64,000 nucleotides of DNA from Bacteroidales bacterium MB20-C3-3 (lineage in GTDB: Bacteria > Bacteroidota > Bacteroidia > Bacteroidales > UBA932), in NCBI GenBank assembly GCA_035609245.1, contig CP141202.1, positions 1,302,001 to 1,366,000 of the forward strand. Reading direction: 5' to 3'. The notes under the pieces are model-generated. The model searched no databases and had not been told where the DNA came from. It saw only the letters and a program-made list of their open reading frames with translations. The first letter of the stretch is position 1. Each line of letters opens with the position of its first letter. Of the stretch, positions 15,039 through 33,748 are shown in pieces. The translations under genes and the position numbers were made by a program.

Positions 15039-15068
15039 TTGCATATTTACAATTTTATAGTACCTTTG
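15039..15068 (+). promoter_or_regulatory. promoter of DEAD-box helicase gene
   Basis: A -33 TTG (15039-15041) directly follows the stop codon of the previous gene and is separated by exactly 19 bases from a -7 TACCTTTG (15061-15068). The ATG at 15077 lies only eight bases further, giving a very short leader. Confidence 0.75.
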
Positions 15069-15076
15069 CGCCCCTA

Positions 15077-16249: not shown

Positions 16250-16253
16250 ACCC

Positions 16254-16261
16254 TATATTTG
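16254..16261 (+). promoter_or_regulatory. -7 promoter element
   Basis: TATATTTG ends 19 bases before the ATG at 16281 and just after the helicase stop codon. No -33 TTG is evident, so this is a moderate call. Confidence 0.4.
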
Positions 16262-16280
16262 CAAATAAAATCTGCAAAAT

Positions 16281-16907
16281 ATGGCAAAGTACGGATGGTT
16301 CATCTGGGTATCATTAATTGCTGCAATAGCATCATTTCTGGCAATACCAGTTACAAGAGATCTTTTTGAGACAGCAACTGCTGCTCACCCTTACATAATG
16401 GGTTTTGTAAAATTTGCAATCCTCTCTATGATGGGTGAGTTTCTTGCCGTAAGGTTGGTTAAAGGAGAGTGGCAAGCTGTAAGAGGTATGTTTGCAAAAA
16501 TGGTTGTCTGGGGTATCCTGGGGATGATGATAGTAGCGATGTTTGCTCTCTTCACCGCAGGTGTAACCGGGGCCACAGAGAGAGGTTTACTTTGGACCGG
16601 TGGCTCAAAACTTCTTTTCGCACTATATGTGTCATTCATAATGAACTATACATTTGGGGCAGTATTTATGGCCTCACACAGAATTACAGATTACATTATT
16701 GAAAACAGAGGCTCCGTTACTAATGCCGTTTCAAATATTGACTGGATCGGGTTTATAAAATTCGTAGTGGGCAAGACAATCCCATTATTCTGGGTGCCTG
16801 CCCACACGATTACATTTCTCCTTCCGGACCAGTACCGGGTGCTGTTTGCAGCCTCTCTCTCTATTGTCCTGGGTCTTATTTTGTCTTACGCGAAGCTCCG
16901 TAAATAG
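16281..16907 (+). CDS. multi-pass membrane protein, possibly Mpv17-like
   Basis: The 208-residue product has about five hydrophobic segments. The C-terminal block FWVPAHTITFLLPDQYRVLF followed by a final helix LSIVLGLILSYAKLRK loosely resembles the Mpv17/PMP22 C-terminal signature, but this is a weak match by eye. There is no signal for enzymatic function. Its last 32 bases overlap the convergent gamma-glutamyl hydrolase-like gene, so the two transcripts are complementary at their 3' ends. Confidence 0.75.
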   Translation: MAKYGWFIWVSLIAAIASFLAIPVTRDLFETATAAHPYIMGFVKFAILSMMGEFLAVRLVKGEWQAVRGMFAKMVVWGILGMMIVAMFALFTAGVTGATERGLLWTGGSKLLFALYVSFIMNYTFGAVFMASHRITDYIIENRGSVTNAVSNIDWIGFIKFVVGKTIPLFWVPAHTITFLLPDQYRVLFAASLSIVLGLILSYAKLRK

Positions 16908-17676
16908 AGGCTTCGTCTACCAGATGTCTGAAGATTCCGATAAAAGAGTCATATCCGTTGGATGTAAACACCTCCGGGTGGAACTGAACTCCATAAACCT
17001 TAGAGCTTCCAATCTTCTCCATAGCCTCAATTACTCCATCCTTTGAAAGGGCCGTCACCTTAAATCCCGGCGCCACATCCTTTACAGCCTGATGGTGGAA
17101 TGTATTAACAGCAATACTGTCAACTCCAATCTGTCTGTGCAGCAAAGAGCCCTTCTCAATCATTATTGAGTGGGTTCCGTACCATCCCGGAGTGCTCTGT
17201 CTGTGTTTTACGGAGTATCCCTTTAACTGTGATGGCAGATCCTGGTATAGTGTACCCCCAAAAGCGACATTGAGCAGCTGATGCCCTCTGCAAATTCCCA
17301 GCAGAGGCAATCCCTTTTCAACAGCAAGTCTTATCAGGGCAATATCAAAATCATCTCTCTTTGGAGCTATTTCACCCATAGCCGAGATGGGCTCTTCGCC
17401 AAACCATTTAAGAGGATCTATATCCTCTCCTCCTGTCATAATCACTGCATCCACCCTCTCCAGCATAGAGGATAGAAGCTCAATGTCTGATGTAAGAGGG
17501 AGCACGACTGGAACACCTCCGGCTCTTATAACAGAGTTAACATAGGTAATTGGAACCTGTGTTGATGTACCCTCTCCCCAGGTTGAGGAGATGCCAATAA
17601 CCGGTTTTTTTGCATCCTGAGCTGAGAGGCTCAGGGAGAGAAGAGCAAATAAAACAATAGCGAATAATTTTTTCAT
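16876..17676 (-). CDS. secreted class I glutamine amidotransferase-like / gamma-glutamyl hydrolase (peptidase C26)
   Basis: The 266-residue protein has a signal peptide (MKKLFAIVLFALLSLSLSAQ) and then a peptidase C26 (PuuD-like) domain. The nucleophile elbow is LLGICRGHQLLN with Cys129, and the C-terminal VQFHPEV supplies His and Glu. MTGGEDIDP is the typical loop of gamma-glutamyl-GABA hydrolases. Export is unusual relative to cytosolic PuuD. Being downstream of an AbgT transporter and a secreted serine hydrolase, it may cleave gamma-glutamyl bonds in peptides or folate/peptidoglycan fragments; this is inference. Confidence 0.88.
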   Translation of the reverse strand: MKKLFAIVLFALLSLSLSAQDAKKPVIGISSTWGEGTSTQVPITYVNSVIRAGGVPVVLPLTSDIELLSSMLERVDAVIMTGGEDIDPLKWFGEEPISAMGEIAPKRDDFDIALIRLAVEKGLPLLGICRGHQLLNVAFGGTLYQDLPSQLKGYSVKHRQSTPGWYGTHSIMIEKGSLLHRQIGVDSIAVNTFHHQAVKDVAPGFKVTALSKDGVIEAMEKIGSSKVYGVQFHPEVFTSNGYDSFIGIFRHLVDEASIYGASRKTK

Positions 17677-17695
17677 TATAGTATCAGTTTAATAT

Positions 17696-19210
17696 TTAAG
17701 GCATATGTACAGGCCCGTCAAAGCCGACAGGTATTCCCAGGAGAAGCCATATTGTAATCATCACCGCCCACACTATCAGGAAGATTACTGTATACGGAAT
17801 CATTAAAGAGATAATTGTTCCTATTCCATTCTTCTCATCATATTTCTGTGCGTAGGTTACAATTAAAGCAAAATAGCTCATCATTGGTGTTATAACATTT
17901 GTAACAGAATCTCCTATTCTGAAGGCAGCCTGGGTTAGTCCGGGGTGGTAACCCAGAAGCATAAACATAGGGATAAATACCGGCGCCATAATAGCCCACT
18001 TTGCTGATGCACTTCCCATAAACATATTAAGGAATGCTGCCAGAATTACAAAGGCAATAATTAGCGGAATCCCTGTAAATCCAATATTTTTCAAGAATTC
18101 TGCTCCATCAATAGCTACAACAAGTCCCAGATTTGAGTAGTTAAACCAGTAGATAAACTGGGCAGCAAAAAATACAAGGACAATGTATCCCCCAAGCCCC
18201 TTCATAGAGTGGGTCATGTGTTTGATAACATCCTTATCACTCTTTATTGTACCCACTATTATTCCGTAAATCATCCCCGGCACAAAGAACAGAAGCAGAA
18301 GACCCACAACAATTCCTGAGAAAAATGGTGAACGCAGGATCCCTCCTGTTTCAGGATCCCTCAGCAGCCCATTTTCCGGAATTATAGTCCAGGCCATTGC
18401 AGCCATAAAAATTAGTGTACCCCATCCGGCCCATTTAAGCCCCTTCTTCTCTTTTGATGTTATCTGCTCTATCTCCAAAGGCTTTTCAGTGCCATGATAT
18501 GTCCCCAGCCTTGGTTCTACAATCTTTTCGGTAATCCAGGTTCCCACGAATACAACCATTATTGCACTGGCTACCATAAAGAAATAGTTTACCATTGGAT
18601 TAATATTCATCTCCGGATCAATAATGTTTGCTGCAGAGGTTGAGAGTCCTGCCAGGATAGGGTCTACTGACCCAATCAGGAAGTTGGAGCCGAACCCTGC
18701 GCTTACACCCGCAAAGGCAGCGGCAAAACCTGCCATAGGATGCCTCCCTAGTGCATGGAATATCATTGCACCTAATGGGATAAGAATGACATATCCCACC
18801 TCTGATGCAAGGTGAGAGAAGATCCCTGCTACAATTATTGATGCAGTAATAAGTTTTTTTGGGGCTCCTAAAACAAGCTGTCTTACCAGTACGGTAAAGA
18901 GGCCGGAACCCTCAGCAACCCCAATACCAATCATAATTACAAGCACAAGGCCAAGGGGTGGAAATTCCACAAAATTGTGCTCAACATTTGTGTAGATCCA
19001 TCTGATTCCATCTGCATCCAAAAGGTTTCTAACCTTAATAATCTCGCCTGTTGCAGGATGAAGTGCCTGCAATCCGGCAGCAGAGGCCCACCAGGAGAGT
19101 AGTGCAACCAGGGCTGCCATCATAAAAAAGAGAGTGGCGGGGTGTGGCAATCTGTTTCCCACCACTTCAATAGTATCCAGTACTCTTGCAAAACGGCTCT
19201 TTTTAGTCAT
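17696..19210 (-). CDS. AbgT family transporter
   Basis: This 504-residue inner-membrane protein has about 12 membrane segments and AbgT family hallmarks: VVGNRLPHPATLFFMMA at the N-terminus, EGSGLFTVLVRQLV, GVSAGFGSNFLIGSVDPIL, and NMFMGSASAKWAIMAPVFIP followed by RIGDSVTNVITPMMSYFALI. AbgT proteins take up p-aminobenzoyl-glutamate, and others export antimetabolites such as sulfonamides. It sits between a secreted serine hydrolase (33 bases upstream) and a secreted gamma-glutamyl hydrolase (19 bases downstream), which suggests import of glutamyl-containing products. Confidence 0.93.
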   Translation of the reverse strand: MTKKSRFARVLDTIEVVGNRLPHPATLFFMMAALVALLSWWASAAGLQALHPATGEIIKVRNLLDADGIRWIYTNVEHNFVEFPPLGLVLVIMIGIGVAEGSGLFTVLVRQLVLGAPKKLITASIIVAGIFSHLASEVGYVILIPLGAMIFHALGRHPMAGFAAAFAGVSAGFGSNFLIGSVDPILAGLSTSAANIIDPEMNINPMVNYFFMVASAIMVVFVGTWITEKIVEPRLGTYHGTEKPLEIEQITSKEKKGLKWAGWGTLIFMAAMAWTIIPENGLLRDPETGGILRSPFFSGIVVGLLLLFFVPGMIYGIIVGTIKSDKDVIKHMTHSMKGLGGYIVLVFFAAQFIYWFNYSNLGLVVAIDGAEFLKNIGFTGIPLIIAFVILAAFLNMFMGSASAKWAIMAPVFIPMFMLLGYHPGLTQAAFRIGDSVTNVITPMMSYFALIVTYAQKYDEKNGIGTIISLMIPYTVIFLIVWAVMITIWLLLGIPVGFDGPVHMP

Positions 19211-19243
19211 TTTGTAGTTGTGTTGTTAGTTTATAATTTATTT

Positions 19244-20776
19244 TTAGTTCTGAATTTTTAACCAAGGTCCAAAGTTCTCGTCTCCTCCAAAATCAATATC
19301 CAAAGATGGCCTGTCACCAAAAATGAATTTAACCCTGAAACCGTGTCCATCACTACGGAAAGTAAACTCATTCCCATCTCTGTGAACAAGTTTATTCCTC
19401 CAGCCTTTAGGGCCTACGGTGATATAAGCCTCTCCTTCCTCTATATCAACTATAGCTCTTCCAAAAAGTTCACCCTTATCATACACTCCGGCAATCTGAT
19501 CCAGTGATGGTGCGGCCCTCTTTTCAGAGGGTGTATCCCTCTTCATTGCCTTTTCTCTGCTCTCCTTAGAGCTCTTTATCCACTCAGCCAGATAATCAGC
19601 ACTATAATCCCTCAGAACCTCCTCTCCCCTGTACATATCAATAAGCCTCCTCATCAGAGAGTATCTGAGATTTGCAGGAGCATCCGAATTTACCAGAAAA
19701 ACCATTCCCAGATTCATCTCAGGCACAAAAGCAACGAGAGTTGTAAATCCCCATGTGGTTCCTGTATGAAACCACAGTCTGTATTTACTGTTTTGTTCAA
19801 CAAACCAGCAATGAGCATAAAGCGTTGTTCTGGCAGAATCCTGGGACGTAATGGTCTGTCCCCTGTGAAGATAGTCCATTCCCCTCTTTGTTATAATCTC
19901 CTTTCCGCCGGCCTTGCCCTTATCCAGATGGAAACGGACATATTTAAGCATATCCGGCACAGTTGAATTTACCGAACCTGCAGGGCCGACTACAGTAAGC
20001 CAGTGCAGAGCCTGCTCCTCACCCAGCAGAGGGGAGTGGTAGATAGAATCTCTCCAGCCGTAGTCGTTGGGTACTGCCGCGTAGGGCGATGCTGCAAAGG
20101 GCTCTCCGTTTGCTGATGTATTGTACATCCCAAGAGGGTCAAGTATCACATCTTTTAAGTTATCCTCCCAGCTCTTTCCTGAAAGTTTCTCAATTATTTT
20201 CTGAGCTATAATAAAAGTTATATTATTATACTCGTATGATCCCCTAAAACTGTATCCCGGTTTTAGAAGATGCATCATTTTGTATACATCATCCCTTGAG
20301 TAGCCTAGATTTGGAATATAAGTTCCCTGCTGACCCTTAATCCCCATCCTGTGGGTCATAATATCTTTTACCTGGAGATTCTCCTCAATCCAGTTATCGT
20401 ATAAATCCAGGTCCGGAAGTATCCTCTTTACTGTATCATCCCATTTAACCTTACCCTCATCAACCAGCCTGGCCATTAGTGTGGCTGTAAAAGATTTTGA
20501 AACAGATCCAATCTGAAAAAGTGTTGTTTCATTTACAGGAGTTCCATCGGGTCTGGCCTCTCCAAATCCCTCAAGGAAGACAACCTCTCCATCTTTAATT
20601 ACTCCGGCAGCTATTCCGGGAATTTTCCACTCATTTTTAACCTTGAGGATATAATCTCTGTAGTTGTTAAAATCTACTGTGCCTTTGTTCTGAGCATAAA
20701 CAGCTGCAGAACATAATGATGCAAGTATCAGCAGGGCTGATGCTAAGGTGTGGGTTAGTTTCATTGTAAAAGTCAT
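19244..20776 (-). CDS. secreted serine beta-lactamase-like hydrolase (class C / peptidase S12 family) with C-terminal DUF3471-like domain
   Basis: The product is about 510 residues with a signal peptide (LTHTLASALLILASLCSAAVYA). The SxxK motif is in QIGSVSKSFT (Ser91, Lys94), the YxN motif is YEYNN, and the third box is WFHTGTTWG. The C-terminal ~100 residues look like the DUF3471 domain often fused to such enzymes. Members include D-aminopeptidases, esterases and peptidoglycan peptidases. The ATG at 20785 falls inside the -7 element, so the start is 20776 (six bases after the element) or 20764 (MKLTH). Confidence 0.88.
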   Translation of the reverse strand: MTFTMKLTHTLASALLILASLCSAAVYAQNKGTVDFNNYRDYILKVKNEWKIPGIAAGVIKDGEVVFLEGFGEARPDGTPVNETTLFQIGSVSKSFTATLMARLVDEGKVKWDDTVKRILPDLDLYDNWIEENLQVKDIMTHRMGIKGQQGTYIPNLGYSRDDVYKMMHLLKPGYSFRGSYEYNNITFIIAQKIIEKLSGKSWEDNLKDVILDPLGMYNTSANGEPFAASPYAAVPNDYGWRDSIYHSPLLGEEQALHWLTVVGPAGSVNSTVPDMLKYVRFHLDKGKAGGKEIITKRGMDYLHRGQTITSQDSARTTLYAHCWFVEQNSKYRLWFHTGTTWGFTTLVAFVPEMNLGMVFLVNSDAPANLRYSLMRRLIDMYRGEEVLRDYSADYLAEWIKSSKESREKAMKRDTPSEKRAAPSLDQIAGVYDKGELFGRAIVDIEEGEAYITVGPKGWRNKLVHRDGNEFTFRSDGHGFRVKFIFGDRPSLDIDFGGDENFGPWLKIQN

Positions 20777-20782
20777 TTCAGA

Positions 20783-20790
20783 CAAAGATA
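20783..20790 (-). promoter_or_regulatory. -7 promoter element of serine hydrolase-AbgT-hydrolase operon
   Basis: TATCTTTG on the minus strand matches TAnnTTTG. It excludes the ATG at 20785 as start codon and places the next ATG (20776) six bases downstream. Confidence 0.5.
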
Positions 20791-20792
20791 AT

Positions 20793-20800
20793 TATATTTG
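20793..20800 (+). promoter_or_regulatory. -7 promoter element of radA
   Basis: TATATTTG ends 22 bases before the radA ATG at 20823, back to back with the serine hydrolase promoter. No -33 TTG at standard distance. Confidence 0.45.
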
Positions 20801-20822
20801 TAAAGTAATAAATGATATAAGA

Positions 20823-22202
20823 ATGGCTAAGGTGAAAAAGGCGTGGTTCTGTACTTCGTGCGGGAACGAGAGTGCTAAATGGATGGGAAAGTGCCCTGCC
20901 TGCGGTGAGTGGAATACAATGCAGGAGGAGATTGTTTCAAAAGAGGGGAGCTCAGCTGTGCCTTTTGGCAGAGGAGGATCAAGAGACAACGGACACGCTC
21001 CTCGTCCTGAGCCCCTCTCTGCTGTCTCTTCATCTGAAGAGCAGAGGGTTTTGCTTGGTATTTCTGAGATGGACAGAATTCTTGGAGGTGGTCTTGTAAA
21101 GGGCTCTATGGTATTGATTGGTGGAGAGCCCGGAATAGGAAAATCTACCCTTTCTCTTCAGATTCCTCTTCACTGCCCTCAGATCAAGACTCTTTATGTA
21201 TCGGGAGAGGAGAGCACCAGACAAATTAAACTCAGAGCACAAAGACTTGGAGGAGATGATTCAAACACACTGATACTTAGCGAGACTCTTATAGAGAATA
21301 TTCTTATCCAGGCAAAAGAGCAGACTCCCTCATTAATGGTCATAGACTCTATCCAGACCATGTACTCAGAGGCGCTTGAAAGCTCCCCCGGAACTGTTTC
21401 TCAGGTGAGAGAGTGTGCAGCAATGCTTTTAAGATTTGCAAAAGAGACAGGAACACCTGTGCTGATAATCGGTCATATAACTAAAGACGGGAGTATAGCC
21501 GGGCCCAAAGTTCTTGAGCACATTGTAGATGTTGTACTTCAGTTTGAAGGAGATACAAGACACTCTTACAGAATACTCAGAAGTATAAAAAACCGGTTTG
21601 GTTCCACTGCTGAACTGGCAATTTTTGAGATGGTGGCAACAGGGCTCAGAGAGGTCTCTAATCCATCTGAAATGCTGATTCCCATGCACGGAGAGGATCT
21701 ATCCGGTATAGCCGTTGCAGCTATGCTTGACGGCACCAGACCCTTCCTTATTGAAACTCAGGCCCTGGTGAGTACTGCCGCATATGGCACACCACAAAGA
21801 TCTGCAACCGGTTTTGACTCCAGGAGAACAAATATGCTCCTTGCCGTACTGGAGAAGAGAGCCGGTTTTAAACTTGCAGCTAAGGATGTTTTTCTTAATA
21901 TGGCAGGAGGGCTGAGGGTAACAGATCCAGCTTGCGATCTTGCTGTTGTTTGCGCAATCCTCTCATCAAATTTTGATTACGCCATACCGTCAGGATATTG
22001 TTTTGCAGCCGAGGTTGGACTCAGCGGAGAGATAAGACCGGTAAGTCAGGTTGACAGGCGGATAGCAGAGGCCGAGAAGCTCGGCTTTAAAAAAATATTT
22101 GTCTCCGCATTCAGCAAACACCCTAAGGATAATAAGCAAAGAATTAAGATTGTTGAAATTAAAGATATACCTGAACTTGTAAGGGAGCTCTTTAAAGGGT
22201 AG
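20823..22202 (+). CDS. radA: DNA repair protein RadA
   Basis: RadA (Sms) is a RecA-like helicase that helps branch migration in recombination. The ~459-residue product shows the N-terminal C4 zinc finger CTSCGNESAKWMGKCPACGE, Walker A GGEPGIGKSTLSL, the RadA-specific IKNRFGS, and a C-terminal Lon-protease-like domain (LNMAGGLRVTDPACDLAV). The start MAKVKKAWFC at 20823 is preferred: it puts the zinc finger at the N-terminus as in homologs and follows a -7 element; the frame is open upstream to 20748. Confidence 0.97.
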   Translation: MAKVKKAWFCTSCGNESAKWMGKCPACGEWNTMQEEIVSKEGSSAVPFGRGGSRDNGHAPRPEPLSAVSSSEEQRVLLGISEMDRILGGGLVKGSMVLIGGEPGIGKSTLSLQIPLHCPQIKTLYVSGEESTRQIKLRAQRLGGDDSNTLILSETLIENILIQAKEQTPSLMVIDSIQTMYSEALESSPGTVSQVRECAAMLLRFAKETGTPVLIIGHITKDGSIAGPKVLEHIVDVVLQFEGDTRHSYRILRSIKNRFGSTAELAIFEMVATGLREVSNPSEMLIPMHGEDLSGIAVAAMLDGTRPFLIETQALVSTAAYGTPQRSATGFDSRRTNMLLAVLEKRAGFKLAAKDVFLNMAGGLRVTDPACDLAVVCAILSSNFDYAIPSGYCFAAEVGLSGEIRPVSQVDRRIAEAEKLGFKKIFVSAFSKHPKDNKQRIKIVEIKDIPELVRELFKG

Positions 22203-22206
22203 CATC

Positions 22207-23226
22207 CTACATAAAAAAGAGAGAAACTCCCACAACACTCAGTACTGCACCCAAAGTCTCTACCCAGGTCACCTTTTTCTTGTAAATCAGCACATAAGGG
22301 AGCAGGATTATTATTGGGGTTGTGGCCATAATTGTTGAGGCTACAGCTGTGTTGGCATTCTGAACAGCCAGCAGGGAGAGGGAGACCCCGATAAAAGGGC
22401 CAAAAATTGAACCCATAAATGTAGCTCCCATAGCCTTTTTATCCCTCACACCCTCTTTAAGAAATTTCATTCTGCCCGTCAGAACAATAATCAGGGCAAA
22501 GCCGATTGCACCACTTATAATCCTCATATGCGTAGCTGCAAAGGGAATGTATGAGGCCACCTCTGTACCCTCTGCCGATAGCGCGTAATGGTTCATACCA
22601 ACTTTGCTCAATACAATCCCGAATCCCTGACCCAGTGCAGCTCCAATCCCAAGAAGGACTCCCTTCATAGGGAGATGCAACTCTACATCAGGAAGGATTT
22701 TTTTGACAAAACTACGCTTCTCTTTTTCACAACTTGTTACTACAGCCATATGGCTTGTTCCGGCAATTGCAGTAGCTTCGCCATTTTTGGGAGCACTCCT
22801 TTTTAATATTGATATTCCGATACCAAACATTGTTACAGCCATTCCCAGAAATCCCATAGGAGAGAGCTTTTCTCCCAGTAATATCCAACCGAAAAGAGCA
22901 GCAAAAGGTGGGGCAAGAGTCATAAGAAGCTGAGAGAATCTTGCTGTAATAATTGTATATGAATAAAAGAGACAGAGGTCTCCAAAAACAAAACCCACCA
23001 GTCCGGAGAGAGACATCCACAGCCAGGTCTTTCCATCTGCCTCAGCAGGGAGAAATGATCCTGTTGTAAAAAATAACATTATCCCCAGCAGGAAAAATGC
23101 AAACAGAAGCCTGAGCAGATTAACTGACAGAGATCCAATTCTTTTTCCGGCAAATTCAAAAAAGAGAGCGGTAAATGTCCATGAGACAGCTACCGCTATT
23201 GATATAATTTCCCCAAAGTATTGCAT
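22207..23226 (-). CDS. EamA/DMT family transporter
   Basis: The 339-residue protein has about ten membrane segments in two EamA repeats, the first with SLSGLVGFVFGDLCLFYSY, ARFSQLLMTLAPPFAALFGW and LGEKLSPMGFLGMAVTMFGI, the second ending NTAVASTIMATTPIIILLPY and TWVETLGAVLSVVGVSLFFM. DMT transporters move metabolites such as amino acids; no substrate can be assigned. It begins 35 bases after the trpB stop and may be read through from the trp-attenuated transcript, although a candidate -7 element of its own lies at 23245-23252. If cotranscribed, an aromatic amino acid or indole substrate would be a reasonable guess. It converges on radA, four bases away. Confidence 0.9.
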   Translation of the reverse strand: MQYFGEIISIAVAVSWTFTALFFEFAGKRIGSLSVNLLRLLFAFFLLGIMLFFTTGSFLPAEADGKTWLWMSLSGLVGFVFGDLCLFYSYTIITARFSQLLMTLAPPFAALFGWILLGEKLSPMGFLGMAVTMFGIGISILKRSAPKNGEATAIAGTSHMAVVTSCEKEKRSFVKKILPDVELHLPMKGVLLGIGAALGQGFGIVLSKVGMNHYALSAEGTEVASYIPFAATHMRIISGAIGFALIIVLTGRMKFLKEGVRDKKAMGATFMGSIFGPFIGVSLSLLAVQNANTAVASTIMATTPIIILLPYVLIYKKKVTWVETLGAVLSVVGVSLFFM

Positions 23227-23244
23227 AAATTAATTTTTGAGGTC

Positions 23245-23252
23245 CAAATGTA
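23245..23252 (-). promoter_or_regulatory. possible -7 promoter element of EamA transporter gene
   Basis: TACATTTG on the minus strand matches TAnnTTTG between the trpB stop and the EamA start. No -33 TTG lies at the right distance, so independent transcription is only a possibility. Confidence 0.35.
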
Positions 23253-23261
23253 AGAATATGT

Positions 23262-24539
23262 TCAGAATTCCGGTAAAAAATCCTCATATGCAGCCAAATC
23301 AAGAAGGCCGTGTCCTGAGAGATTAAAAAGGATAACTTCACTCTTGCCGGATTCTCTGGCCTTCAAAGCCTCTCTTACAACTGCTGCAATGGCATGAGTG
23401 CTCTCAGGTGCCGGAATAATCCCCTCACTTCTGGCAAACATCAAACCGGATTTAAATGCCTCTGACTGCTCTATTGCAACACTATCAAGCAACCCATCAA
23501 GTTTAAGCCTGCTCACTATTCTGCCACCTCCGTGGTACCTGAGCCCTGCAGCGTGAATCTGTTCAGGAGAGAATTCGTGACCAAGAGTGAACATTGGTAT
23601 CAGCGGAGTCATCCCCGCACTATCTCCAAAATCATATTCAAATTTTCCGGTTGTAAGTTTTGGACAGGCAGAGGGTTCAGCAGCAATGGCCTTTACTCCG
23701 TTACGGATAAATGGAAATGCTATTCCTGCAAAATTTGAGCCCCCTCCAAAACAGGCAATAACCTTATCAGGACGCTCTCCTGCCATCTCCATCTGCTTCT
23801 CGGCCTCTAAGCCTATTATTGACTGGTGAAGAAGAACATGATCAAGAACACTCCCCAGCGAATATCTTGTATCCGGATTTGTAACAGCCATCTCAACCGC
23901 TTCAGAGATTGCAATTCCCAGACTGCCTCTCTCATTTGGAGATGATGATAGAAGTTTACGCCCGTACATTGTCAAATTTGATGGAGATGGGTGAACAGAT
24001 GCACCAAACGAGTTCATAAATATCTTTCTGTATGGCTTTGCGTCATAGCTCTGCCTTACCATAAAAACATCCAGCTCCATACCAAAGTGCTTACAGGCAA
24101 TACTCATAGCACTACCCCACTGTCCTGCTCCTGTCTCTGTAGTTATTCTTTTAATCCCCTGAATTTTGTTGTAATAGGCTTGAGCTATAGCTGTGTTAAA
24201 TTTATGAGATCCCACAGGACTTACGCTCTCATTTTTAAAGAATATTTTTGCAGGTGTGTCAAGTACCTTCTCCAGTTCATAAGCCCTTACAAGAGGTGTG
24301 GGTCTGTACATTTTATACATATCCCTTACCTCATCCGGAATCTCAATCCACCTTTCGTTTGAGAACTCCTGTTTTACAAGTTCTTTAGCAAATAGTGGCT
24401 CCATCTCCTCCGGCTTAAGAGGATTTCTGGTTGCCGGATTTAACATTGGATCAGGCAAATTTTTCATATCTGCCTTAATGTTGTACCACATTCTGGGTAC
24501 CTCCTTCTCGTCAAGCAAGAATCGTTTTTTGTTTGTCAT
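23262..24539 (-). CDS. trpB: tryptophan synthase beta chain, TrpB2 type
   Basis: The 425-residue PLP enzyme joins indole and serine to make tryptophan. The PLP lysine is Lys113 in VSPVGSHKFN, with TGAGQWGSAMSIACK and the glycine loop CFGGGSNFAG. The N-terminal extension (MWYNIKADMKNLPDP...LNPATRNPLKPEE) and overall length mark the TrpB2 subfamily, which does not depend on TrpA in the usual way. No trpA or other trp gene is adjacent. The upstream 170 bases hold a leader peptide gene and a terminator, so expression should be controlled by tryptophan attenuation. Confidence 0.95.
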   Translation of the reverse strand: MTNKKRFLLDEKEVPRMWYNIKADMKNLPDPMLNPATRNPLKPEEMEPLFAKELVKQEFSNERWIEIPDEVRDMYKMYRPTPLVRAYELEKVLDTPAKIFFKNESVSPVGSHKFNTAIAQAYYNKIQGIKRITTETGAGQWGSAMSIACKHFGMELDVFMVRQSYDAKPYRKIFMNSFGASVHPSPSNLTMYGRKLLSSSPNERGSLGIAISEAVEMAVTNPDTRYSLGSVLDHVLLHQSIIGLEAEKQMEMAGERPDKVIACFGGGSNFAGIAFPFIRNGVKAIAAEPSACPKLTTGKFEYDFGDSAGMTPLIPMFTLGHEFSPEQIHAAGLRYHGGGRIVSRLKLDGLLDSVAIEQSEAFKSGLMFARSEGIIPAPESTHAIAAVVREALKARESGKSEVILFNLSGHGLLDLAAYEDFLPEF

Positions 24540-24558
24540 AATGTTAATAATTAAAAAT

Positions 24559-24593
24559 AAAAAAAAGGCCCGGAGCGTGAGCTCCGGACCTTT
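24559..24593 (-). terminator. trp attenuator (intrinsic terminator in trpB leader)
   Basis: On the minus strand GGTCCGGAGC (24590-24581), loop TCAC, GCTCCGGGCC (24576-24567) form a 10-bp stem with one G-T pair, extended by three A-T pairs, followed by eight T residues (24566-24559). It ends about 20 bases before the trpB ATG. The 5' arm and loop contain GCTCAC (24582-24577), complementary to GTGAGC in the leader peptide gene (24651-24646), a candidate antiterminator pairing. Confidence 0.85.
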
Positions 24594-24628
24594 GTATATT
24601 GGTAATAGGTTAAACCCTTATCAAAATA

Positions 24629-24709
24629 TTACGGCATAATGAAGTGCTCACAAATCAAATTTGACTTGTGCCACCACCATGACTGAATATTTGATATAAC
24701 TGCTTTCAT
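24629..24709 (-). CDS. trpL: trp operon leader peptide
   Basis: A 26-residue open frame from ATG at 24709 to TAA at 24629 encodes a peptide with three consecutive Trp codons (24679-24671) in the context NIQSWWWHKSNL. A promoter with both elements lies just upstream and a strong terminator lies 36 bases after the stop codon, before trpB. Three adjacent codons for the rarest amino acid upstream of a tryptophan gene are diagnostic for ribosome-mediated attenuation. When charged tRNA-Trp is scarce, a ribosome stalled on the Trp codons would leave GTGAGC (about 19 bases downstream) free to pair with the terminator arm and allow transcription of trpB. Confidence 0.88.
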   Translation of the reverse strand: MKAVISNIQSWWWHKSNLICEHFIMP

Positions 24710-24723
24710 TCTGTTTGTTGAGG

Positions 24724-24753
24724 CAAATCTAAAAAGAATCTCTGAAAATACAA
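24724..24753 (-). promoter_or_regulatory. promoter of trpL-trpB
   Basis: The minus strand has a -33 TTG (24753-24751), a 19-base spacer and a -7 TAGATTTG (24731-24724). The trpL ATG follows 14 bases later. The promoter lies within the 3' end of prmC: the -7 element begins with the prmC TAG stop codon. Confidence 0.8.
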
Positions 24754-25634
24754 TGGAGCATCCTATCTTTTCCGTTAATATCTTTCCTTAACTCCACTTC
24801 ACAATAATCCATCTCCATAAATAGTTCTGCAGTCTCCAATGCCTTTGCCTCATTAAGTTCAAGGTAAATTTCACCACCATTCTTTAATAGAGCTCTGCCC
24901 CAGTTTGCAATAGATTTATAAAAAAGAAGAGGATCATAATCAGGCACAAATAGAGCGCTATATGGCTCATAATCAAGAACATTACTTCTCATCAAAACCT
25001 TTTCGGACTCAAGAACATAAGGGGGATTGCTCACAATAATATCAAGAGTCCCACCCCCTATAATATACTGACTAAGAGGTCCTGTTAAAAGATCACATTT
25101 AAATATTACAGGGTTTTTTACGGCTGACCTGGTTTTTATTTCATCACTGCAAATCCTTTTTGAGTTTTCTGAAGCAACCTCCAAAGCCACATCTGAGATA
25201 TCAAACATAAAGATCTCTGATCCCGGCATTTCACAAGCAAGTGTTATACCAATACAACCGGAACCTGTAGCAGCATCCAGAATTTTAAGGCCTGCTCCAC
25301 CCTGTTTTTCGCTTGAAATCCACGATACCAGCTCCTCCGTCTCAGGTCTGGGAATTAGCACCCCCTCTTTAACAATAAAATCTCTGCTGAAAAACTCCTG
25401 AAAACCCAGAACATATTGGAGTGGCCTGCCTCTTTTAAGCTCCTCTGCCATAATATTTAGTTTAGGTAAGAATACCTCTCCAATTTCCATCTCAGGATCG
25501 GTCAGATGGGCATAAGGTGGTAAAGAGCAAACATGGTTTATCAGGTTTACAGAAATGGCTTTTGCCTCATTAGCCCCGTACATAGCCTCAAGAGAGGAGA
25601 TTAGAGTCTGAACAAAATTCCTGTATGTTACCAT
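24729..25634 (-). CDS. prmC: peptide chain release factor N5-glutamine methyltransferase
   Basis: PrmC methylates the Gln of the GGQ motif in release factors RF1 and RF2. The ~301-residue protein has the N-terminal helical domain, RPLQYVLGFQEFFSRDF, the RPETEELVSW segment, the SAM loop ILDAATGSGCIGITLA and the catalytic NPPYV. The ATG at 25634 lies two bases after the stop of the upstream gene; a TTG at 25640 would add two residues. The trp leader promoter overlaps its last codons. Confidence 0.95.
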   Translation of the reverse strand: MVTYRNFVQTLISSLEAMYGANEAKAISVNLINHVCSLPPYAHLTDPEMEIGEVFLPKLNIMAEELKRGRPLQYVLGFQEFFSRDFIVKEGVLIPRPETEELVSWISSEKQGGAGLKILDAATGSGCIGITLACEMPGSEIFMFDISDVALEVASENSKRICSDEIKTRSAVKNPVIFKCDLLTGPLSQYIIGGGTLDIIVSNPPYVLESEKVLMRSNVLDYEPYSALFVPDYDPLLFYKSIANWGRALLKNGGEIYLELNEAKALETAELFMEMDYCEVELRKDINGKDRMLHCIFRDSF

Positions 25635-25636
25635 AG

Positions 25637-27976
25637 TCAAAGTTTCAGCGCCCAGATATTACCGGCAAAATCAGCAATATAAAGTACACCACTCTCTATT
25701 ACAGGGGAGGCGAGATTAGGAGAGCCCGTGTTAAATCTCCACTTAAAAACACCTGTCTCTGCATTAACACAGTAAACATATCCGTCATTCGCTCCAAAGT
25801 AGACATCGCCTGCATAAAGCAAGGGGCTGCTCTCAACTGTAAGCTGGAAGTCCTTTGTATATGGAGCTGTGTAAATCAATGCAGGATTTGTTCTGAAATT
25901 CCACATCTCTCTGTAGTCCTCCCTTCTGTTGAAAGCCACAACTCCTTTGTCAGTAGTTCCTACAATGTAGTATTTATCTGTAACAAGAGGCTTTGAGTAG
26001 CTGTTAACTGTGTAAGAGATATGTCTTTTCACCCTCTCTTCTCCGCTGAGAGGATCTACTTCTGTTATATAATTTGGTGATGTATAGAAGAATGAGCCTC
26101 CAAAGGCAACAGGAGAGTTATCGGCAATTCTGGTATCGTTATCTCTCTTCTCCCACAAGAGCTTTCCATCCTCTGAGCTATGTGCAAACCTGCCTGTCCA
26201 GTAAGCCGATGTCAGAAGAACGCCTGAACCTGGTTCAACTACAGGCGATGCTACAGTTGTAACTCCCCCTCTCCAGGAGTTGTTTACCCAAAGGATCTTT
26301 CCATCTTTAGCCCTCATTGCAGTAAGGAAATCCCCCTGACCGGCATAAACAACATCATTATACACAACTACTCCCTGGTTATATGACGGGTGAATAGCCC
26401 CCCGCCTAAGCTCCCTGCTCCATTTTAGCGAACCTTTTGATACATCTGCAGCATAAACCTTACCCTCTACATCCGCAGCATAAAGCATTCCGTTCCAGTA
26501 CTCCATCCTGTTCTTAACAGAGTTATCTACCGGTATTTTCCAGGCTATCTTTCCGCTGCTCTTTTCGAAAGCAACAATCGCGGATTTTTTTGCTGACTCA
26601 TCATCAGCAGTTGCAGTTATTACATATTTGTCTGTTAAAACGGGGGTTACCATATGGATAGCTCCCCCTGCTGATGCTCTCCAGGATACGACCGGAGCTG
26701 AATAAATATCAGCCGGTTTTACGATAACACTCCCGTCAGAAAATTCAGCCTTTATTTTTACGGCATCAGCTGAGTTCAAATCTTTTACTGCAGATGAAGG
26801 GAATGAGACACTCCATGTGAAGTCAGACTCTTTTGTCATTTTGTACTCCTTTTTCCCAGCTACAGCGTTCGCAACTGTAACGTTAGAAGGGGTATCATAA
26901 ATGGTTGCTACTACCTTTATCTCTTTACGCTCCCTCCCAAACAGTGATCTTGAACCTGTCTCATCTTCATATCCTGTTGCCCTTACATGTTTATCCAGCG
27001 GAGAGTAGATTAATTTTGTTTCAACCTCTCCAGCGGAATTAAAGTTTATAACTCTGAATGATGATGGTGAATGGTTAATTCCCCCTTTGTTTGGAGACAT
27101 CGATGAGATAGTTGTTACGCCACCCCTGGATGTCTTGTGGAACATATTAGTATGATAATGAGCATATAAATATGCTTTAAGGTTGTATGCCTTAAGATCC
27201 AGTTCAAATCCTGTTGTTTTAAGAACAAAATCAGATTCAAATCCTACAAGGTGGTGGTTAAAGATTATAACGGGTGTCCCCGGCTTAATTGCCTCAAGGT
27301 CATTTTTAAGCCATGTGTATACATCTTCTGATGTATATCCTGGCTTTCTGTCTCCCTGTAATACGGGAAGATTTACAAAGTGTACGCCATTAATATTAAA
27401 TGAGTACCACACAGGACCAAAGAGCTCTTCGTAGAGAGCCTCACCGGAAGGGCCGTCAACAAGATCGTGGTTTCCAAGGGTGTATACCGTACGAACCCCC
27501 AGCTTTGACTCATTTAGCTCTTTTGCGTGAAAACGCATCCCCTTTTCATAACATATGTCACCGTTTAAAAGCACAAAGGCAGGCTTGGTATTATTCACAT
27601 AACTCTTGAAGAGTGTTACCCAGTCCTTGTAGACACTAGCCTCTGTATCTCCGGTATGGATAAAAAACCCGGGATAGTTATCCCTTCTAACAAGTTTAAA
27701 AGTATAGCTTTCTGATGAGGGGTCCAGCCTGTGGTAAAACCCTCCTTCATGATCAAAACCATCAGGAGTTGAGACAAATATAAATTTTGCAGCGGGACTG
27801 GTATTAAAAAAGAAGGTCCCGGCTGAATCACTTTTAACTACTGAATAGCCATCTGAGACCACAACATCCTTTATGCCTGCACCTTTTACATCCTCTACCC
27901 GTCCTGATACCCAGTGAGCCATGGCAGTATGGGAGATGGCAAGCAAGAATGCAGCGACAGATAATAAAATTCTCAT
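25637..27976 (-). CDS. secreted calcineurin-like phosphoesterase fused to PQQ-type beta-propeller
   Basis: The 779-residue protein has a signal peptide (ILLSVAAFLLAISHTAMA), then a short carboxypeptidase-regulatory-like beta domain (VSGRVEDVKGAGIKDVVVSD), then a metallophosphoesterase domain with LLNGDICYEKG, YTLGNHDLVDG, FNHHLVG and LYAHYHTN. The usual first D-x-H motif appears altered (FIHTGDTEAS). The C-terminal ~350 residues form a pyrrolo-quinoline-quinone-like propeller with repeated VxxSPLLYAGDVYFGANDGY-type blades. The substrate is unknown. Its ATG overlaps the ddl stop by four bases, and prmC starts two bases after it, so it is in the PBP1A-ddl transcript. Confidence 0.85.
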   Translation of the reverse strand: MRILLSVAAFLLAISHTAMAHWVSGRVEDVKGAGIKDVVVSDGYSVVKSDSAGTFFFNTSPAAKFIFVSTPDGFDHEGGFYHRLDPSSESYTFKLVRRDNYPGFFIHTGDTEASVYKDWVTLFKSYVNNTKPAFVLLNGDICYEKGMRFHAKELNESKLGVRTVYTLGNHDLVDGPSGEALYEELFGPVWYSFNINGVHFVNLPVLQGDRKPGYTSEDVYTWLKNDLEAIKPGTPVIIFNHHLVGFESDFVLKTTGFELDLKAYNLKAYLYAHYHTNMFHKTSRGGVTTISSMSPNKGGINHSPSSFRVINFNSAGEVETKLIYSPLDKHVRATGYEDETGSRSLFGRERKEIKVVATIYDTPSNVTVANAVAGKKEYKMTKESDFTWSVSFPSSAVKDLNSADAVKIKAEFSDGSVIVKPADIYSAPVVSWRASAGGAIHMVTPVLTDKYVITATADDESAKKSAIVAFEKSSGKIAWKIPVDNSVKNRMEYWNGMLYAADVEGKVYAADVSKGSLKWSRELRRGAIHPSYNQGVVVYNDVVYAGQGDFLTAMRAKDGKILWVNNSWRGGVTTVASPVVEPGSGVLLTSAYWTGRFAHSSEDGKLLWEKRDNDTRIADNSPVAFGGSFFYTSPNYITEVDPLSGEERVKRHISYTVNSYSKPLVTDKYYIVGTTDKGVVAFNRREDYREMWNFRTNPALIYTAPYTKDFQLTVESSPLLYAGDVYFGANDGYVYCVNAETGVFKWRFNTGSPNLASPVIESGVLYIADFAGNIWALKL

Positions 27977-28950
27977 TTCAGTGAAGAGTAAATTAGTTTT
28001 GTTATGAAATCTTTAATTGACATCCCTGCAGATCTGACCTGCTGAGGAACAAGGCTCATCTCGGTCATTCCAGGGACAGTATTAATTTCAAGGAAGAAAA
28101 TATCCTCTTCCCTGACTATATAATCAACCCTCACAACCCCACGACAGCCCAGATATCTGTATATCTCGTGAGTCGTTTTCTGTATCTTTTCTGACAGTTT
28201 ATCAGGAATAACGGCAGGACATATCTCCCTGGATGCTCCAAGATACTTTGCCTCATAGTCAAAAAACTCGTTGTCAGGGATAATCTCTGTAACCGGCAAT
28301 TTTACAAGCTCTCCATCAGACTCAAAAACACCATTTGTCATCTCTCTCCCCTTAATATACTCCTCTGCAAGGATTGAATCGGCCTCAGCAAAGGCAGCCT
28401 CAAGTGCCCCTTTCAGCTCCTCCCTGCTCTTTACTTTTGTCACCCCGAAGCTGCTACCCCCTACATTTGGTTTCACAAAAAGAGGAAGGCCAAGTTTTGA
28501 AATTATCCTCTCCTCATCAGGAGTCTCCCTTCTGTGAAGGAGAATCTCCTTTGCAAGGGCAATTCCGGTATCTCTCAGGAAACATTTGCATGCATATTTA
28601 TCAAATGTTATTGCGGAGACTGTAGATGGGCATGTGGTATATCTCATCCCTATCATCTCAAAATATGCCTGGAGTAAACCATTCTCGCCAGGAGTACCAT
28701 GTATCATAATCAAGGCTGTGTCAAACTTCACCTTTTGCCCATCCATCATAAATGAAAAATCTGCCTTGTCAATGTCGCAAATGACATCACTCTCCGCAAC
28801 AACTCTCCACTCACTCCCTGATAAATGTACCTCGTGGACATCAAAAAGATCTCTGTCTATATGAGATAAAACATGCTTGCCGCTTTTTACAGAGACCTCA
28901 GCCTCAGAAGAGTCTCCCCCATAAACGAGAGCTATACTCAATTTTTTCAT
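27973..28950 (-). CDS. ddl: D-alanine--D-alanine ligase
   Basis: This cytosolic ATP-grasp enzyme makes the D-Ala-D-Ala dipeptide for peptidoglycan. The 325-residue sequence has IALVYGGDSSEAEVSVKSG at the start, MIHGTPGENG (the conserved HGxxGEDG loop with Thr-Pro replacing part of it), PLFVKPNVGGSSFGVTKV, and the C-terminal FLEINTVPGMTEMSLVPQQ metal-binding segment. It follows PBP1A by 13 bases and overlaps the next gene by four, forming a cell-wall operon. Confidence 0.95.
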   Translation of the reverse strand: MKKLSIALVYGGDSSEAEVSVKSGKHVLSHIDRDLFDVHEVHLSGSEWRVVAESDVICDIDKADFSFMMDGQKVKFDTALIMIHGTPGENGLLQAYFEMIGMRYTTCPSTVSAITFDKYACKCFLRDTGIALAKEILLHRRETPDEERIISKLGLPLFVKPNVGGSSFGVTKVKSREELKGALEAAFAEADSILAEEYIKGREMTNGVFESDGELVKLPVTEIIPDNEFFDYEAKYLGASREICPAVIPDKLSEKIQKTTHEIYRYLGCRGVVRVDYIVREEDIFFLEINTVPGMTEMSLVPQQVRSAGMSIKDFITKLIYSSLK

Positions 28951-28963
28951 TAGGAATAATCAA

Positions 28964-31315
28964 TTAATTGAAAAATGGGTCATTCGCCGTTGATGTCCCT
29001 TCAAGTTCGTCGTCCGATCCACTGCAGTTAAGAATGGCTGAAAATCCTGCCGGCGCAAGGAATGTGTCATATTCAGTTATGCCGAGAGTTCCGTCGGCAA
29101 GCACCTTTTGCATAAATATCCCCCAGATAGGAAGAGCCATATTAGATCCACCTCCAAGGGCAAGACCCTCAAAATGGACCTGTCTGTCCTCTCCACCTAC
29201 CCAAACTCCCGCTGTAAGCTTTGGAACATAACCAATAAACCATCCGTCTGACTGATCATTGGTTGTTCCGGTCTTCCCGGCAATGGGACCTCTTGGAACA
29301 TATTTATATCTTAACCTGGCAGCTGTTCCCTCATTTACAACCCCCTGCATCAGATTGACCATAAGGTAAGCAGTTGACTCACTTATAGCCTCCCTCTTTC
29401 TGCCGGTGAAATTACCAAGTACATTGCCGGCTTTATCCTCAATCCTCAGAACAAATGTCGGCTCAACATGAACCCCTCTGCTTGGATATGTGTTGTACGC
29501 CCCAACCATCTCATAAAGTGTAATATCTGCAGGTCCCAGACATAATGAAACTACCGGATCCAGGAATGTTTTAACCCCAAGTCTTCTTGCCATATCAACC
29601 AAAGCATATGGTCCAAACTGCTTCATAAGATAGGCCGATATATTATTGGAGCTTTTTGTAAGTCCCCATTTAAGCGTAACATGTTTGCCAATCCATTCAG
29701 GTTTATCAGTACTCTCAGGTGTCCAGGTAGTATCCCCCACAATAAATGTCTGGGGAACATTCACAACCTTATCGCAAGGTGTGTATCCCTCCTGCATGGC
29801 AAGAGTATAGAGGAACGGTTTGATTGTAGAGCCAACCTGTCTCTTTGCCTGTCTGGCATTGTCATACTTGAAATATCTGTAATTGGGACCTCCAACATAA
29901 GCCCTCACAAATCCTGTCTGTGGCTCCATAGCCATAAATGATGCCCTGAGAAATGACTTGTAATATCTGATTGAATCATTTGGAGTCATGGTTGTGTCAA
30001 TGTGCCCTCTTCCATTCCATGTGAAGACCGTCATCCTTGAAGGCTTATCAAAAGTTGCCTCAATCTCCCTGTCAGAGAGCCCCTCCTGTTTTAGCATTCT
30101 CCACCTGTCACTCCATCTCCTGGCCTGCTTCATTATATTATCTGTAACAGCCTTAGGCTCTCCGTTTGAGAAGGGCCTGTTACTCTTCCATCTTAACTCT
30201 CTGTTAAATGCCGGCTGAAGATCCTTTCCCAAATGCTCTGCAATTGCCTCCTCGGCATATTGCTGCATTCTTGCATTAATAGTCGTATAAATCTTCAGAC
30301 CATCCTTGTCCAGGTTGTATTTTGTACCATCAGGCTTAAGATTTTTATTAAGCCATCCATAAAGCGGGTCACTTCTCCAGAGAGTAGAATCAGCAGCAAA
30401 GTCCTCCCTGTGACGATAGTCAGATCTCACCGGCTCTTTTGCATTCATCACCCTCCTTAACATATCTCTGAAATAGGGGGCGAGTCCTGAATTGTGATCC
30501 TGCTGAGAATATGCAAGCTTCACCGGAATTTGGGAAACAGAATCATAAACATCCCTCTCAATATAACCATACTTCCTCATCTGATTAAGAACATGGTTCC
30601 TCCTCTGGAGAGAGAGCTCCGGATTTATAACAGGATTAAACCTTGTAGGTTTATTAACCATTCCCACCAAAATTGCAGCCTCCTCAATTGTGAGTTCAGA
30701 TGGGTGCTTTGCAAAGAAGGTATTTGATGCTGCCCTTATTCCGTATGCATTACTGCCAAAGAAGACAGCATTCATATACATACTCAGAATCTCATTTTTT
30801 GTATAGTTTCTCTCAAGCTTAACAGCAGTAATCCACTCCCTGAACTTATTAACTCCAAGAACAACATATCTCGCCCCGGGAATATTGCTTCTTACAGTAT
30901 CCCTTGGAAACAGGGTCTTTGCAAGTTGCTGGGTTAATGTACTGCCACCGCCGCCGGATCTGGTCTGACCAAGAATAATTGATTTAACAGCCACCCTTGC
31001 AAGACTTTTAAAGTCTATGCCGCTGTGATTCATAAATCTTGCATCCTCCGTTGCAATTACTGCAGCAACAAGATTGGGCGATAATTCGTCATAGGTTACA
31101 TAAGATCTGTTCTCTATATGAAATGTTGTAAGAATCTCACCCTCTTCAGATATTATTTCAGTTGCCAGATTGCTCTTAGGGTCCTCAAGCTCACTGAATG
31201 AAGGTATATCCGCAAATATGCCCACCAGAAGCAAGACAAACAGCAGAAGAAGAAATGGCCCGAAAACTATGATTCTGAACCACTTCAGAAATTTTTGCCT
31301 CTTTTTTATCTCCAT
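28964..31315 (-). CDS. mrcA: penicillin-binding protein 1A (bifunctional transglycosylase/transpeptidase)
   Basis: The 783-residue class A PBP has a short cytoplasmic tail and one membrane helix (IIVFGPFLLLLFVLLLVGIF). The GT51 domain shows ATEDARFMNHSGID with the catalytic Glu and GGGGSTLTQQLAKTLFPRD. The transpeptidase domain has the SxxK motif in QVGSTIKPFLYTLA, SSN in LTKSSNNISAYL, and KTGTTNDQSDGWFIG. It polymerises and crosslinks peptidoglycan at the outer face of the inner membrane. It is the first gene of the operon with ddl. Confidence 0.95.
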   Translation of the reverse strand: MEIKKRQKFLKWFRIIVFGPFLLLLFVLLLVGIFADIPSFSELEDPKSNLATEIISEEGEILTTFHIENRSYVTYDELSPNLVAAVIATEDARFMNHSGIDFKSLARVAVKSIILGQTRSGGGGSTLTQQLAKTLFPRDTVRSNIPGARYVVLGVNKFREWITAVKLERNYTKNEILSMYMNAVFFGSNAYGIRAASNTFFAKHPSELTIEEAAILVGMVNKPTRFNPVINPELSLQRRNHVLNQMRKYGYIERDVYDSVSQIPVKLAYSQQDHNSGLAPYFRDMLRRVMNAKEPVRSDYRHREDFAADSTLWRSDPLYGWLNKNLKPDGTKYNLDKDGLKIYTTINARMQQYAEEAIAEHLGKDLQPAFNRELRWKSNRPFSNGEPKAVTDNIMKQARRWSDRWRMLKQEGLSDREIEATFDKPSRMTVFTWNGRGHIDTTMTPNDSIRYYKSFLRASFMAMEPQTGFVRAYVGGPNYRYFKYDNARQAKRQVGSTIKPFLYTLAMQEGYTPCDKVVNVPQTFIVGDTTWTPESTDKPEWIGKHVTLKWGLTKSSNNISAYLMKQFGPYALVDMARRLGVKTFLDPVVSLCLGPADITLYEMVGAYNTYPSRGVHVEPTFVLRIEDKAGNVLGNFTGRKREAISESTAYLMVNLMQGVVNEGTAARLRYKYVPRGPIAGKTGTTNDQSDGWFIGYVPKLTAGVWVGGEDRQVHFEGLALGGGSNMALPIWGIFMQKVLADGTLGITEYDTFLAPAGFSAILNCSGSDDELEGTSTANDPFFN

Positions 31316-31347
31316 ATTTTCTCCCCAATAAATGGTATCGTGAAGGG

Positions 31348-31355
31348 CAAAATTA
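31348..31355 (-). promoter_or_regulatory. -7 promoter element of PBP1A-ddl operon
   Basis: TAATTTTG on the minus strand, 32 bases before the PBP1A ATG. No clear -33 element. Confidence 0.45.
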
Positions 31356-31365
31356 GGAATAAAAA

Positions 31366-31398
31366 TTTTGATTATACCTTATTTTATACCTTACTTTG
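31366..31398 (+). promoter_or_regulatory. promoter of topA
   Basis: A -33 TTTTG (31366-31370), 20-base spacer and -7-like TTACTTTG (31391-31398, one mismatch to TAnnTTTG) precede the topA ATG at 31426. It diverges from the PBP1A promoter. Confidence 0.55.
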
Positions 31399-31425
31399 CA
31401 ACCATCACGGTTTATAACAGACGAT

Positions 31426-33732: not shown

Positions 33733-33748
33733 TTCGTAATACTAAAAT

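Follow-up and report, generated by a model that had tools for sequence, protein, structure and literature searches.

The window (the whole stretch of 64,000 nucleotides analysed, whose numbering is used throughout) carries on its minus strand, between prmC and a stand-alone trpB2, a short open reading frame rich in tryptophan codons followed by a terminator-like hairpin. This arrangement raises the question of whether a single tryptophan synthase beta-like gene is placed under the control of tryptophan supply. The reading favoured here, at a probability of about 0.9 on sequence evidence, is that the element is a ribosome-mediated transcription attenuator which would sense charged tRNA-Trp and control trpB2, the product of which most likely makes tryptophan from scavenged indole.

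Organisation of the trpB2 locus

Base-by-base inspection of the minus strand between prmC and trpB2 confirmed a promoter, a leader open reading frame (ORF) and a hairpin with a T-tract. All of the parts named in the initial annotation, namely the promoter, a 26-codon frame with three tryptophan codons, a 13-bp stem with eight T's and trpB2, are present at the positions given below. The promoter (24753-24724) consists of TTG (24753-24751), a spacer of 19 nt and TAGATTTG (24731-24724), is of the TAnnTTTG type, and presumably fits the Bacteroidota promoter consensus. It overlaps the stop codon of prmC (24729-25640, minus strand), the upstream gene, which lies outside the switch, was found upstream of trpB2 in many loci and often adjoins it in relatives. 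Of the 72 attenuators collected below, 53 have TAnnTTTG at a distance of 10-100 nt upstream of the Trp codons, as against 124 of 1440 shuffles. A scan for sigma-70 promoters returned 27 sites, compared with 35.9 in shuffles, and was left unused.

The leader ORF (24709-24629), running from an ATG at 24709 to a TAA, encodes the 26-codon peptide MKAVISNIQSWWWHKSNLICEHFIMP, in which three consecutive TGG codons (24679-24671) are the putative regulatory codons; the Trp codons are conserved among relatives. Strand 1 (CACAAGTCA, 24670-24662) and strand 2 (TGATTTGTG, 24657-24649), which would pair with strand 1 in the absence of a stalled ribosome, were assigned from folds and from a genus alignment (A1), in which the outer six pairs of helix 1:2 are formed in 97% of cells. 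The candidate antiterminator strand GTGAGC (24651-24646) is complementary to GCTCAC (24582-24577), bases that belong to the upper end of the terminator 5' arm and to the loop. The intrinsic terminator (24593-24559) comprises a stem (24593-24564) closed by a TCAC loop and eight T's (24566-24559). This stem covaries in relatives and has 13 pairs, 8 of them G-C, the most among the 20 terminator-like sites listed in 15000-34000.

The end of the T-tract is separated by 19 bases from the start of trpB2 (24539-23262, minus strand). The product of this gene scored 614 bits with TIGR01415 (cut-off 519) and 155 bits with the TrpB1 model TIGR00263 (cut-off 392), indicating a TrpB2 and not a TrpB1, and it is the sole TIGR01415 match in its genome. 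An EamA-family transporter gene (23226-22207, minus strand) lies 35 nt downstream and is possibly co-transcribed with trpB2 in this genome. Its linkage is variable: in L001, L002, L082 and L008 the transporter follows trpB2 directly, and in L083, L089 and L005 a distance of 0.5-3.5 kb separates the two. Comparison of the transporter with the aromatic amino acid exporter YddG gave a weak match (25 bits, cut-off 300).

The leader within its own genome

For the 181-nt leader the folding energy is -55.3 kcal/mol (z -5.8), and none of 200 shuffles was equally good. The genome contains 35 TGGTGGTGG sites, among which the trpB2 site is the only one on a short frame without a longer ORF over it: at 32 of the other 34 a different frame or strand holds a longer ORF across the site, and the remaining 2 (L184 and L193) encode WWW within long ORFs of 115 and at least 267 codons. 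When the 64-kb window was scanned for terminators preceded by a leader in which three like residues are clustered, six terminator sites were listed, trpB2's included; the other five were judged unconvincing by eye. The complementarity of GTGAGC to GCTCAC noted in the initial annotation is correct as described. Taken alone, however, the 6-7 bp of leader:terminator complementarity are within chance (p = 0.175 against shuffled leaders), so significance rests on the comparative set.

Conservation upstream of trpB2 in relatives

Two trpB2 samples, with some records in common, were assembled: 80 named loci (the best 80 of 576) and 84 family loci, L001 included, from 149 genomes drawn from a larger group, where family is the assignment that the search tool gave to the window's own genome. 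Split trpB2 matches and those cut by a contig end (G028, G029, G033, G074, G099 and G113) were left out. Upstream regions were screened automatically for a terminator together with a short ORF that encodes WW, WWW or WxW at 95-400 nt ahead of trpB2. This test was passed at 55 of the 84 family loci. Among the controls it was passed by no dinucleotide shuffle (0 of 420), no reverse complement (0 of 84) and 2 of 345 other ORFs, both of the latter being shadow frames overlapping trpB2 (L069 and L073). Four further family leaders were recognised by eye (L091, L104, L115 and L125), giving 59 of 84, and at 25 family loci no leader was found by the automatic test or by eye. Among the named loci 17 of 80 passed, L006, with just 29 nt upstream, being counted as a miss and L069 being excluded; the detector's pass at L069 was false by eye, its WWW being the end of the upstream gene, and dropping it left 72 attenuators. 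The first refuting condition of the initial annotation, that relatives lack the Trp codons or the terminator, is not borne out by these counts.

The leader peptides diverge while the Trp codons are kept (WWWHKSN, MINRWWWLGEY, NNNWWWLLQLS, CFWWWRAPF, TFSWRWQN). Interrupted Trp runs (WRWQ, WYWRW, FFWRAWFWQ) with terminators were seen at L023, L024, L077, L099, L148, L152, L155 and L165, of which L148 has no clear antiterminator. In a tabulation made by hand, genomes in which trpA does not exceed its cut-off had a leader at 53 of 70 loci and genomes with trpA at 6 of 14 (p = 0.02), or 51 of 70 and 4 of 14 by automatic detection alone (p = 0.004). This association is given little weight because it ignores relatedness, several of the trpA-bearing loci being from one genus.

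Covariation of the leader with the terminator

Within the genus the antiterminator element is GTGAGC with GCTCAC. Outside the genus both sides change together by eye, as GTCGCAAG with CTTGCGAC (L129), GTCGCGAG with CTCGCGAC (L135), TGTGAACA with TGTTCACA (L115) and GCTGTAAGTC with GACTTACAGC (L143). Pairing was tested on 34 of the 72 attenuators, those below 75% identity. The duplex energies of leaders with their own terminators summed to -561.0 kcal/mol, compared with -404.5 (sd 17.4) when partners were permuted, and 0 of 20,000 permutations reached the sum for own partners. A gap-free score restricted to nucleotides 4-46 downstream of the Trp codons gave the same result (624.8 against 463.4, sd 17.6; 0 of 20,000), and with this score no pairing excess was seen for the 34 loci in two control regions, one before the Trp codons and one just before the terminator. 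In 30 of the 34 loci bases of the terminator loop take part in the pairing, which starts at a median of 18 nt past the last Trp codon. When single loci were compared with shuffled leaders, 18 of 34 gave p below 0.05 and 16 gave p of 0.05 or more; those that did not beat their shuffles singly include L001, L007, L075, L083, L148, L162 and L163.

Within the genus, the helices were assessed on A1, an alignment of 17 rows made from 19 prepared references from which the near copies L008 and L086 were left out. Helices 1:2 and 3:4 are paired in 91.3% of cells, and nine pairs, of which 8 lie in the terminator and 1 in 1:2, have both of their bases changed, a result matched by 0 of 500 shuffles, a control that ignores relatedness. 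The 2:3 pairing is formed in 98% of cells without significant covariation on A1 (68 of 500 shuffles as high). Since 2:3 is nearly invariant in the genus, A1 is uninformative for it, and the permutation tests were used for this reason. The 0 of 420 shuffles passing the leader test, together with cognate pairing at 0 of 20,000 permutations, led us to read the element as a ribosome-mediated trp attenuator. The trpL-type attenuation of a stand-alone trpB2 put forward in the initial annotation is thus strongly supported, as the Trp codons, the terminator and the leader:terminator pairing are all kept despite sequence change.

Proposed mechanism

When tryptophan is sufficient, a ribosome translating the leader would pass WWW and reach the stop codon, GTGAGC would be covered or else hidden in the 1:2 hairpin, and the terminator would halt RNA polymerase ahead of trpB2. 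A shortage of charged tRNA-Trp would make the ribosome stall on WWW, where it would cover strand 1. GTGAGC would then be free to pair with the upper end of the terminator 5' arm and with the loop while the 3' arm is still to be transcribed. This pairing would prevent the terminator from forming, and transcription would continue into trpB2.

Folding was carried out with parts of the RNA masked according to known ribosome footprint sizes. A ribosome on the Trp codons would cover CACAAGTCA (24670-24662) and leave TGATTTGTGAGC (24657-24646) free. In the ribosome-masked fold of the RNA up to the end of the terminator loop, GUGAGC:GCUCAC forms before the 3' arm exists, and when no ribosome is placed on the RNA some of GTGAGC is drawn into the 1:2 hairpin; the covering of the GTGAGC strand by a ribosome at the stop codon was imposed by construction. 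Once the folded RNA took in the complete terminator, this was the minimum-energy structure in each case tried, stalled ribosome included. Because the completed terminator wins energetically, the choice would have to be kinetic, made while RNA polymerase moves. In the E. coli trp operon, likewise, the choice is made during RNA polymerase movement.

Tryptophan metabolism in the genome and genus

The window's own genome (G000) is a single contig and 97% complete; incomplete genomes could hide trp genes. Searches of it with family models gave no trpA match and no indole-glycerol phosphate synthase (IGPS/trpC) match, and its one match to the trpE model (104 bits) is PabB (387 bits, cut-off 275). 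trpA over cut-off was absent from 18 of 19 genus genomes, own included, G064 being the exception, and G030 has one 20-bit trpA match. IGPS exceeded its cut-off in 0 of 13 genus genomes, own included. Both models exceeded cut-off in 14 of 14 control genomes, and trpA did so in 25 of the 149 family genomes. In G064 a trp operon (trpE, trpB and trpA checked) lies behind its own WWW leader (MSKQLQNNVWWWLTKSQIGFCW, L167:5448) and terminator, and a separate trpB2 lies behind a second WWW leader.

A tryptophanase (TnaA) gene is present in the window's genome (G000:C1:1554970-1556322, L216; NF053783, 896 bits, cut-off 750), with no Trp leader by eye in the approximately 350 nt upstream. With a tryptophanase model of cut-off 826, 12 of 13 genus genomes gave matches above 500 bits, all under that cut-off. 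Indole is probably at hand, and TrpB2 is likely to offer a route back to tryptophan. As trpA and IGPS/trpC are undetected, the trpE-like match is pabB and tryptophanase is present, the switch most likely gates indole salvage, and attenuation would keep TrpB2 off when tryptophan is plentiful.

Alternative explanations

The hairpin could be merely the terminator of prmC, and the Trp-rich frame a chance ORF. The terminator does lie about 135 nt after prmC, and the window's own pairing is not significant by itself, but a coincidence of this kind is very hard to reconcile with the persistence of the Trp codons, their spacing and the terminator pairing despite sequence divergence (55 of the 84 family loci pass, no shuffle out of 420 does, and cognate pairing is reached in 0 of 20,000 permutations), and the attenuator is also found where prmC was not detected using the window's PrmC (for example L015, L023 and L075); we give this explanation almost no credence. 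Nascent-chain arrest by free tryptophan in the manner of TnaC, in place of slow decoding of the Trp codons, appears nearly as improbable. The residues before WWW are indeed alike within the genus (NIQSWWWH, NTQSWWWH), whereas what the family shares is mainly the Trp run, the flanks being variable (MINRWWWLGEY, MNNNWWWLLQLS, CFWWWRAPF). TnaC-type arrest, moreover, switches genes on at high tryptophan, the wrong sign for an enzyme that makes tryptophan.

The switch may also be real and TrpB2 not a plain indole salvage enzyme, acting for example on O-phosphoserine or another substrate, a proposal we consider unlikely but worth weighing. TrpB2 proteins of some archaea have been described as users of O-phosphoserine, and the nearest chain of known structure, 6hul_B, which scores 431 bits and is named tryptophan synthase beta chain 1, leaves the substrate unfixed. 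On the other hand, a switch that senses tryptophan implies a product related to tryptophan, and TrpB1 and TrpB2 of T. kodakarensis are reported to convert indole to tryptophan in the available part of PMC11085991. Attenuation of trpB2 by tryptophan supply, with indole as the probable substrate, is accordingly the explanation we prefer.

A tyrosine phenol-lyase-like gene behind tyrosine-rich leaders

A second tryptophanase homolog (L217) is encoded in the same genome outside the window. Comparison with the PDB, made for the own-genome L217 protein only, gave tyrosine phenol-lyase as the best match (376 bits, against 320 for the best-scoring tryptophanase), and the protein scored 433 bits with TIGR02618, under the cut-off of 721. 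Upstream lie two tandem Tyr-rich leaders, MKFNSTYYYSYYYFNRG and MNINRAYYYSYYYYRTYRG..., each with a terminator (L217:322-635, G000:C1 about 65621-65934); Tyr-rich leader ORFs and terminators are also found at L218-L222, in tandem in L218 as in L217. The gene is present in 6 of 13 genus genomes, always with a Tyr-rich leader and, by eye, a terminator. The TyrA (prephenate dehydrogenase) domain PF02153 was found in none of these six, the five genomes with the domain all lack the gene, and two genomes have neither, a mutual exclusion with p = 0.02 uncorrected for relatedness. Six of the eight genus genomes without a TyrA domain thus carry the gene behind Tyr-rich leaders, which suggests a tyrosine attenuator on a lyase used for making tyrosine.

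A broader hypothesis, to which we give slightly less than even odds, is that in this lineage lost de novo pathways have given way to single-step salvage enzymes under leader-peptide attenuators. Tryptophan starvation would open trpB2, so that indole set free by tryptophanase, whether of the cell itself or of its neighbours, is recaptured, with no futile TnaA-TrpB2 cycle at high tryptophan. Where the TyrA domain is lacking, tyrosine starvation would open the tyrosine phenol-lyase-like enzyme, working in the synthetic direction, and aromatic biosynthesis would be replaced by an aromatic salvage regulon of two genes. The known targets of Trp attenuation are biosynthetic operons, in Bacteroidota too, and the target here is a lone enzyme of the indole-to-tryptophan type. 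If the reading is true, tryptophan supply would control the uptake of indole, a signal molecule of microbial communities, and trpB2-bearing 'auxotrophs' would be conditional auxotrophs, a testable prediction for many uncultured Bacteroidales. Divergent leaders of this kind are missed by current Rfam models.

Comparison with known systems

No Rfam family matched the window at its gathering threshold, and the 16 weak matches obtained when E was raised to 10, MicC and Thr_leader among them, were rejected, being mostly terminator matches. The nearest described element is RF01692, Bacteroid-trp, which appears in Table 1 of Weinberg 2010 (PMC2864571, as far as its text was available) and is named 'Bacteroidete tryptophan peptide leader RNA' in Rfam. 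The initial annotation had called the attenuator unusual both in its target and in its phylum; the stand-alone trpB2 target is new, and the second part was mistaken, since RF01692 is a described tryptophan leader of Bacteroidetes. Under stricter filters RF01692 was found in 16 of 198 genomes of the order, in 10 of them over cut-off, and matches were absent from G000, G022 and G005, the family genomes among those listed. All 16 matches encode WW or WWW, and inspection by eye showed trpB or trpE alongside in 15 of 16, the locus at L175 being interrupted by a contig end; gene identity was checked for L172 and L183.

RF01692 and the window element have in common their phylum and a Trp leader ORF with a terminator, and several RF01692 members show by eye a T-tailed hairpin and a post-Trp strand able to pair with its top, like the window. 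They differ in that RF01692 precedes canonical trpB or trpE and the window element precedes trpB2, and in that several RF01692 leaders (L168-L183, by eye) pair with the loop and 3' arm whereas the window pairs with the 5' arm and loop. An example of matching to the loop and 3' arm is GTCGTGAG with CTCACGAC in L173. As the window gave no RF01692 match at the gathering threshold (49 bits) or at E up to 10, it was not assigned to this family; among 20 loci scanned with RF01692, four family trpB2 leaders came near to 49 bits without reaching it (42.2, 41.7, 36.5 and 35.4). The window element would work like RF01692 and is probably kin to it.

In E. coli trpL, pairings 1:2, 2:3 and 3:4 compete and the choice is kinetic. 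The window shares with trpL (RF00513) a leader peptide with tandem Trp codons, and its predicted pairings and kinetic choice are of the same sort. It departs from trpL in that the stop codon comes after strand 2, the antiterminator meets only the top of the terminator, and the target is one salvage-type gene. The window had no RF00513 match (threshold 41 bits), the best of the 20 loci scanned being L124 at 32.4 bits.

Attenuation of more than one trp unit per genome has been predicted in Actinobacteria, where C. diphtheriae has attenuators ahead of both trpB1EDGC and trpB2A (PMC1262725, in the part available). The second unit of C. diphtheriae, however, carries trpA and is called a biosynthetic operon there, whereas here trpB2 stands alone and trpA is undetectable in the genome. 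The trpRBA genes of Chlamydia trachomatis are also regulated tryptophan salvage genes, but according to the accessible portions of PMC7755916 and PMC6504234 their control is by the protein repressors TrpR and YtgR, with trpBA beside trpR, and not by a leader peptide before a lone trpB2. Attenuation has been argued, for a marine setting, to be superfluous for detached trp genes (PMC2395257, in part), and an attenuator on trpB2 would go against that view as a general rule. In favour of the initial annotation's view of the phylum, another 2010 paper stated, in the text available, that leader-peptide systems were not known outside Proteobacteria and Actinobacteria except for ermC and its own case in Firmicutes (PMC2965389). 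In a partial search of the literature no attenuator before a lone trpB2 was described, and Lopatovskaya 2010 (cited in PMC4833913) could hold one. On comparative evidence the element thus appears to be a genuine attenuator, its kind already described in the phylum, and what is new is its target, a stand-alone trpB2, and its setting.
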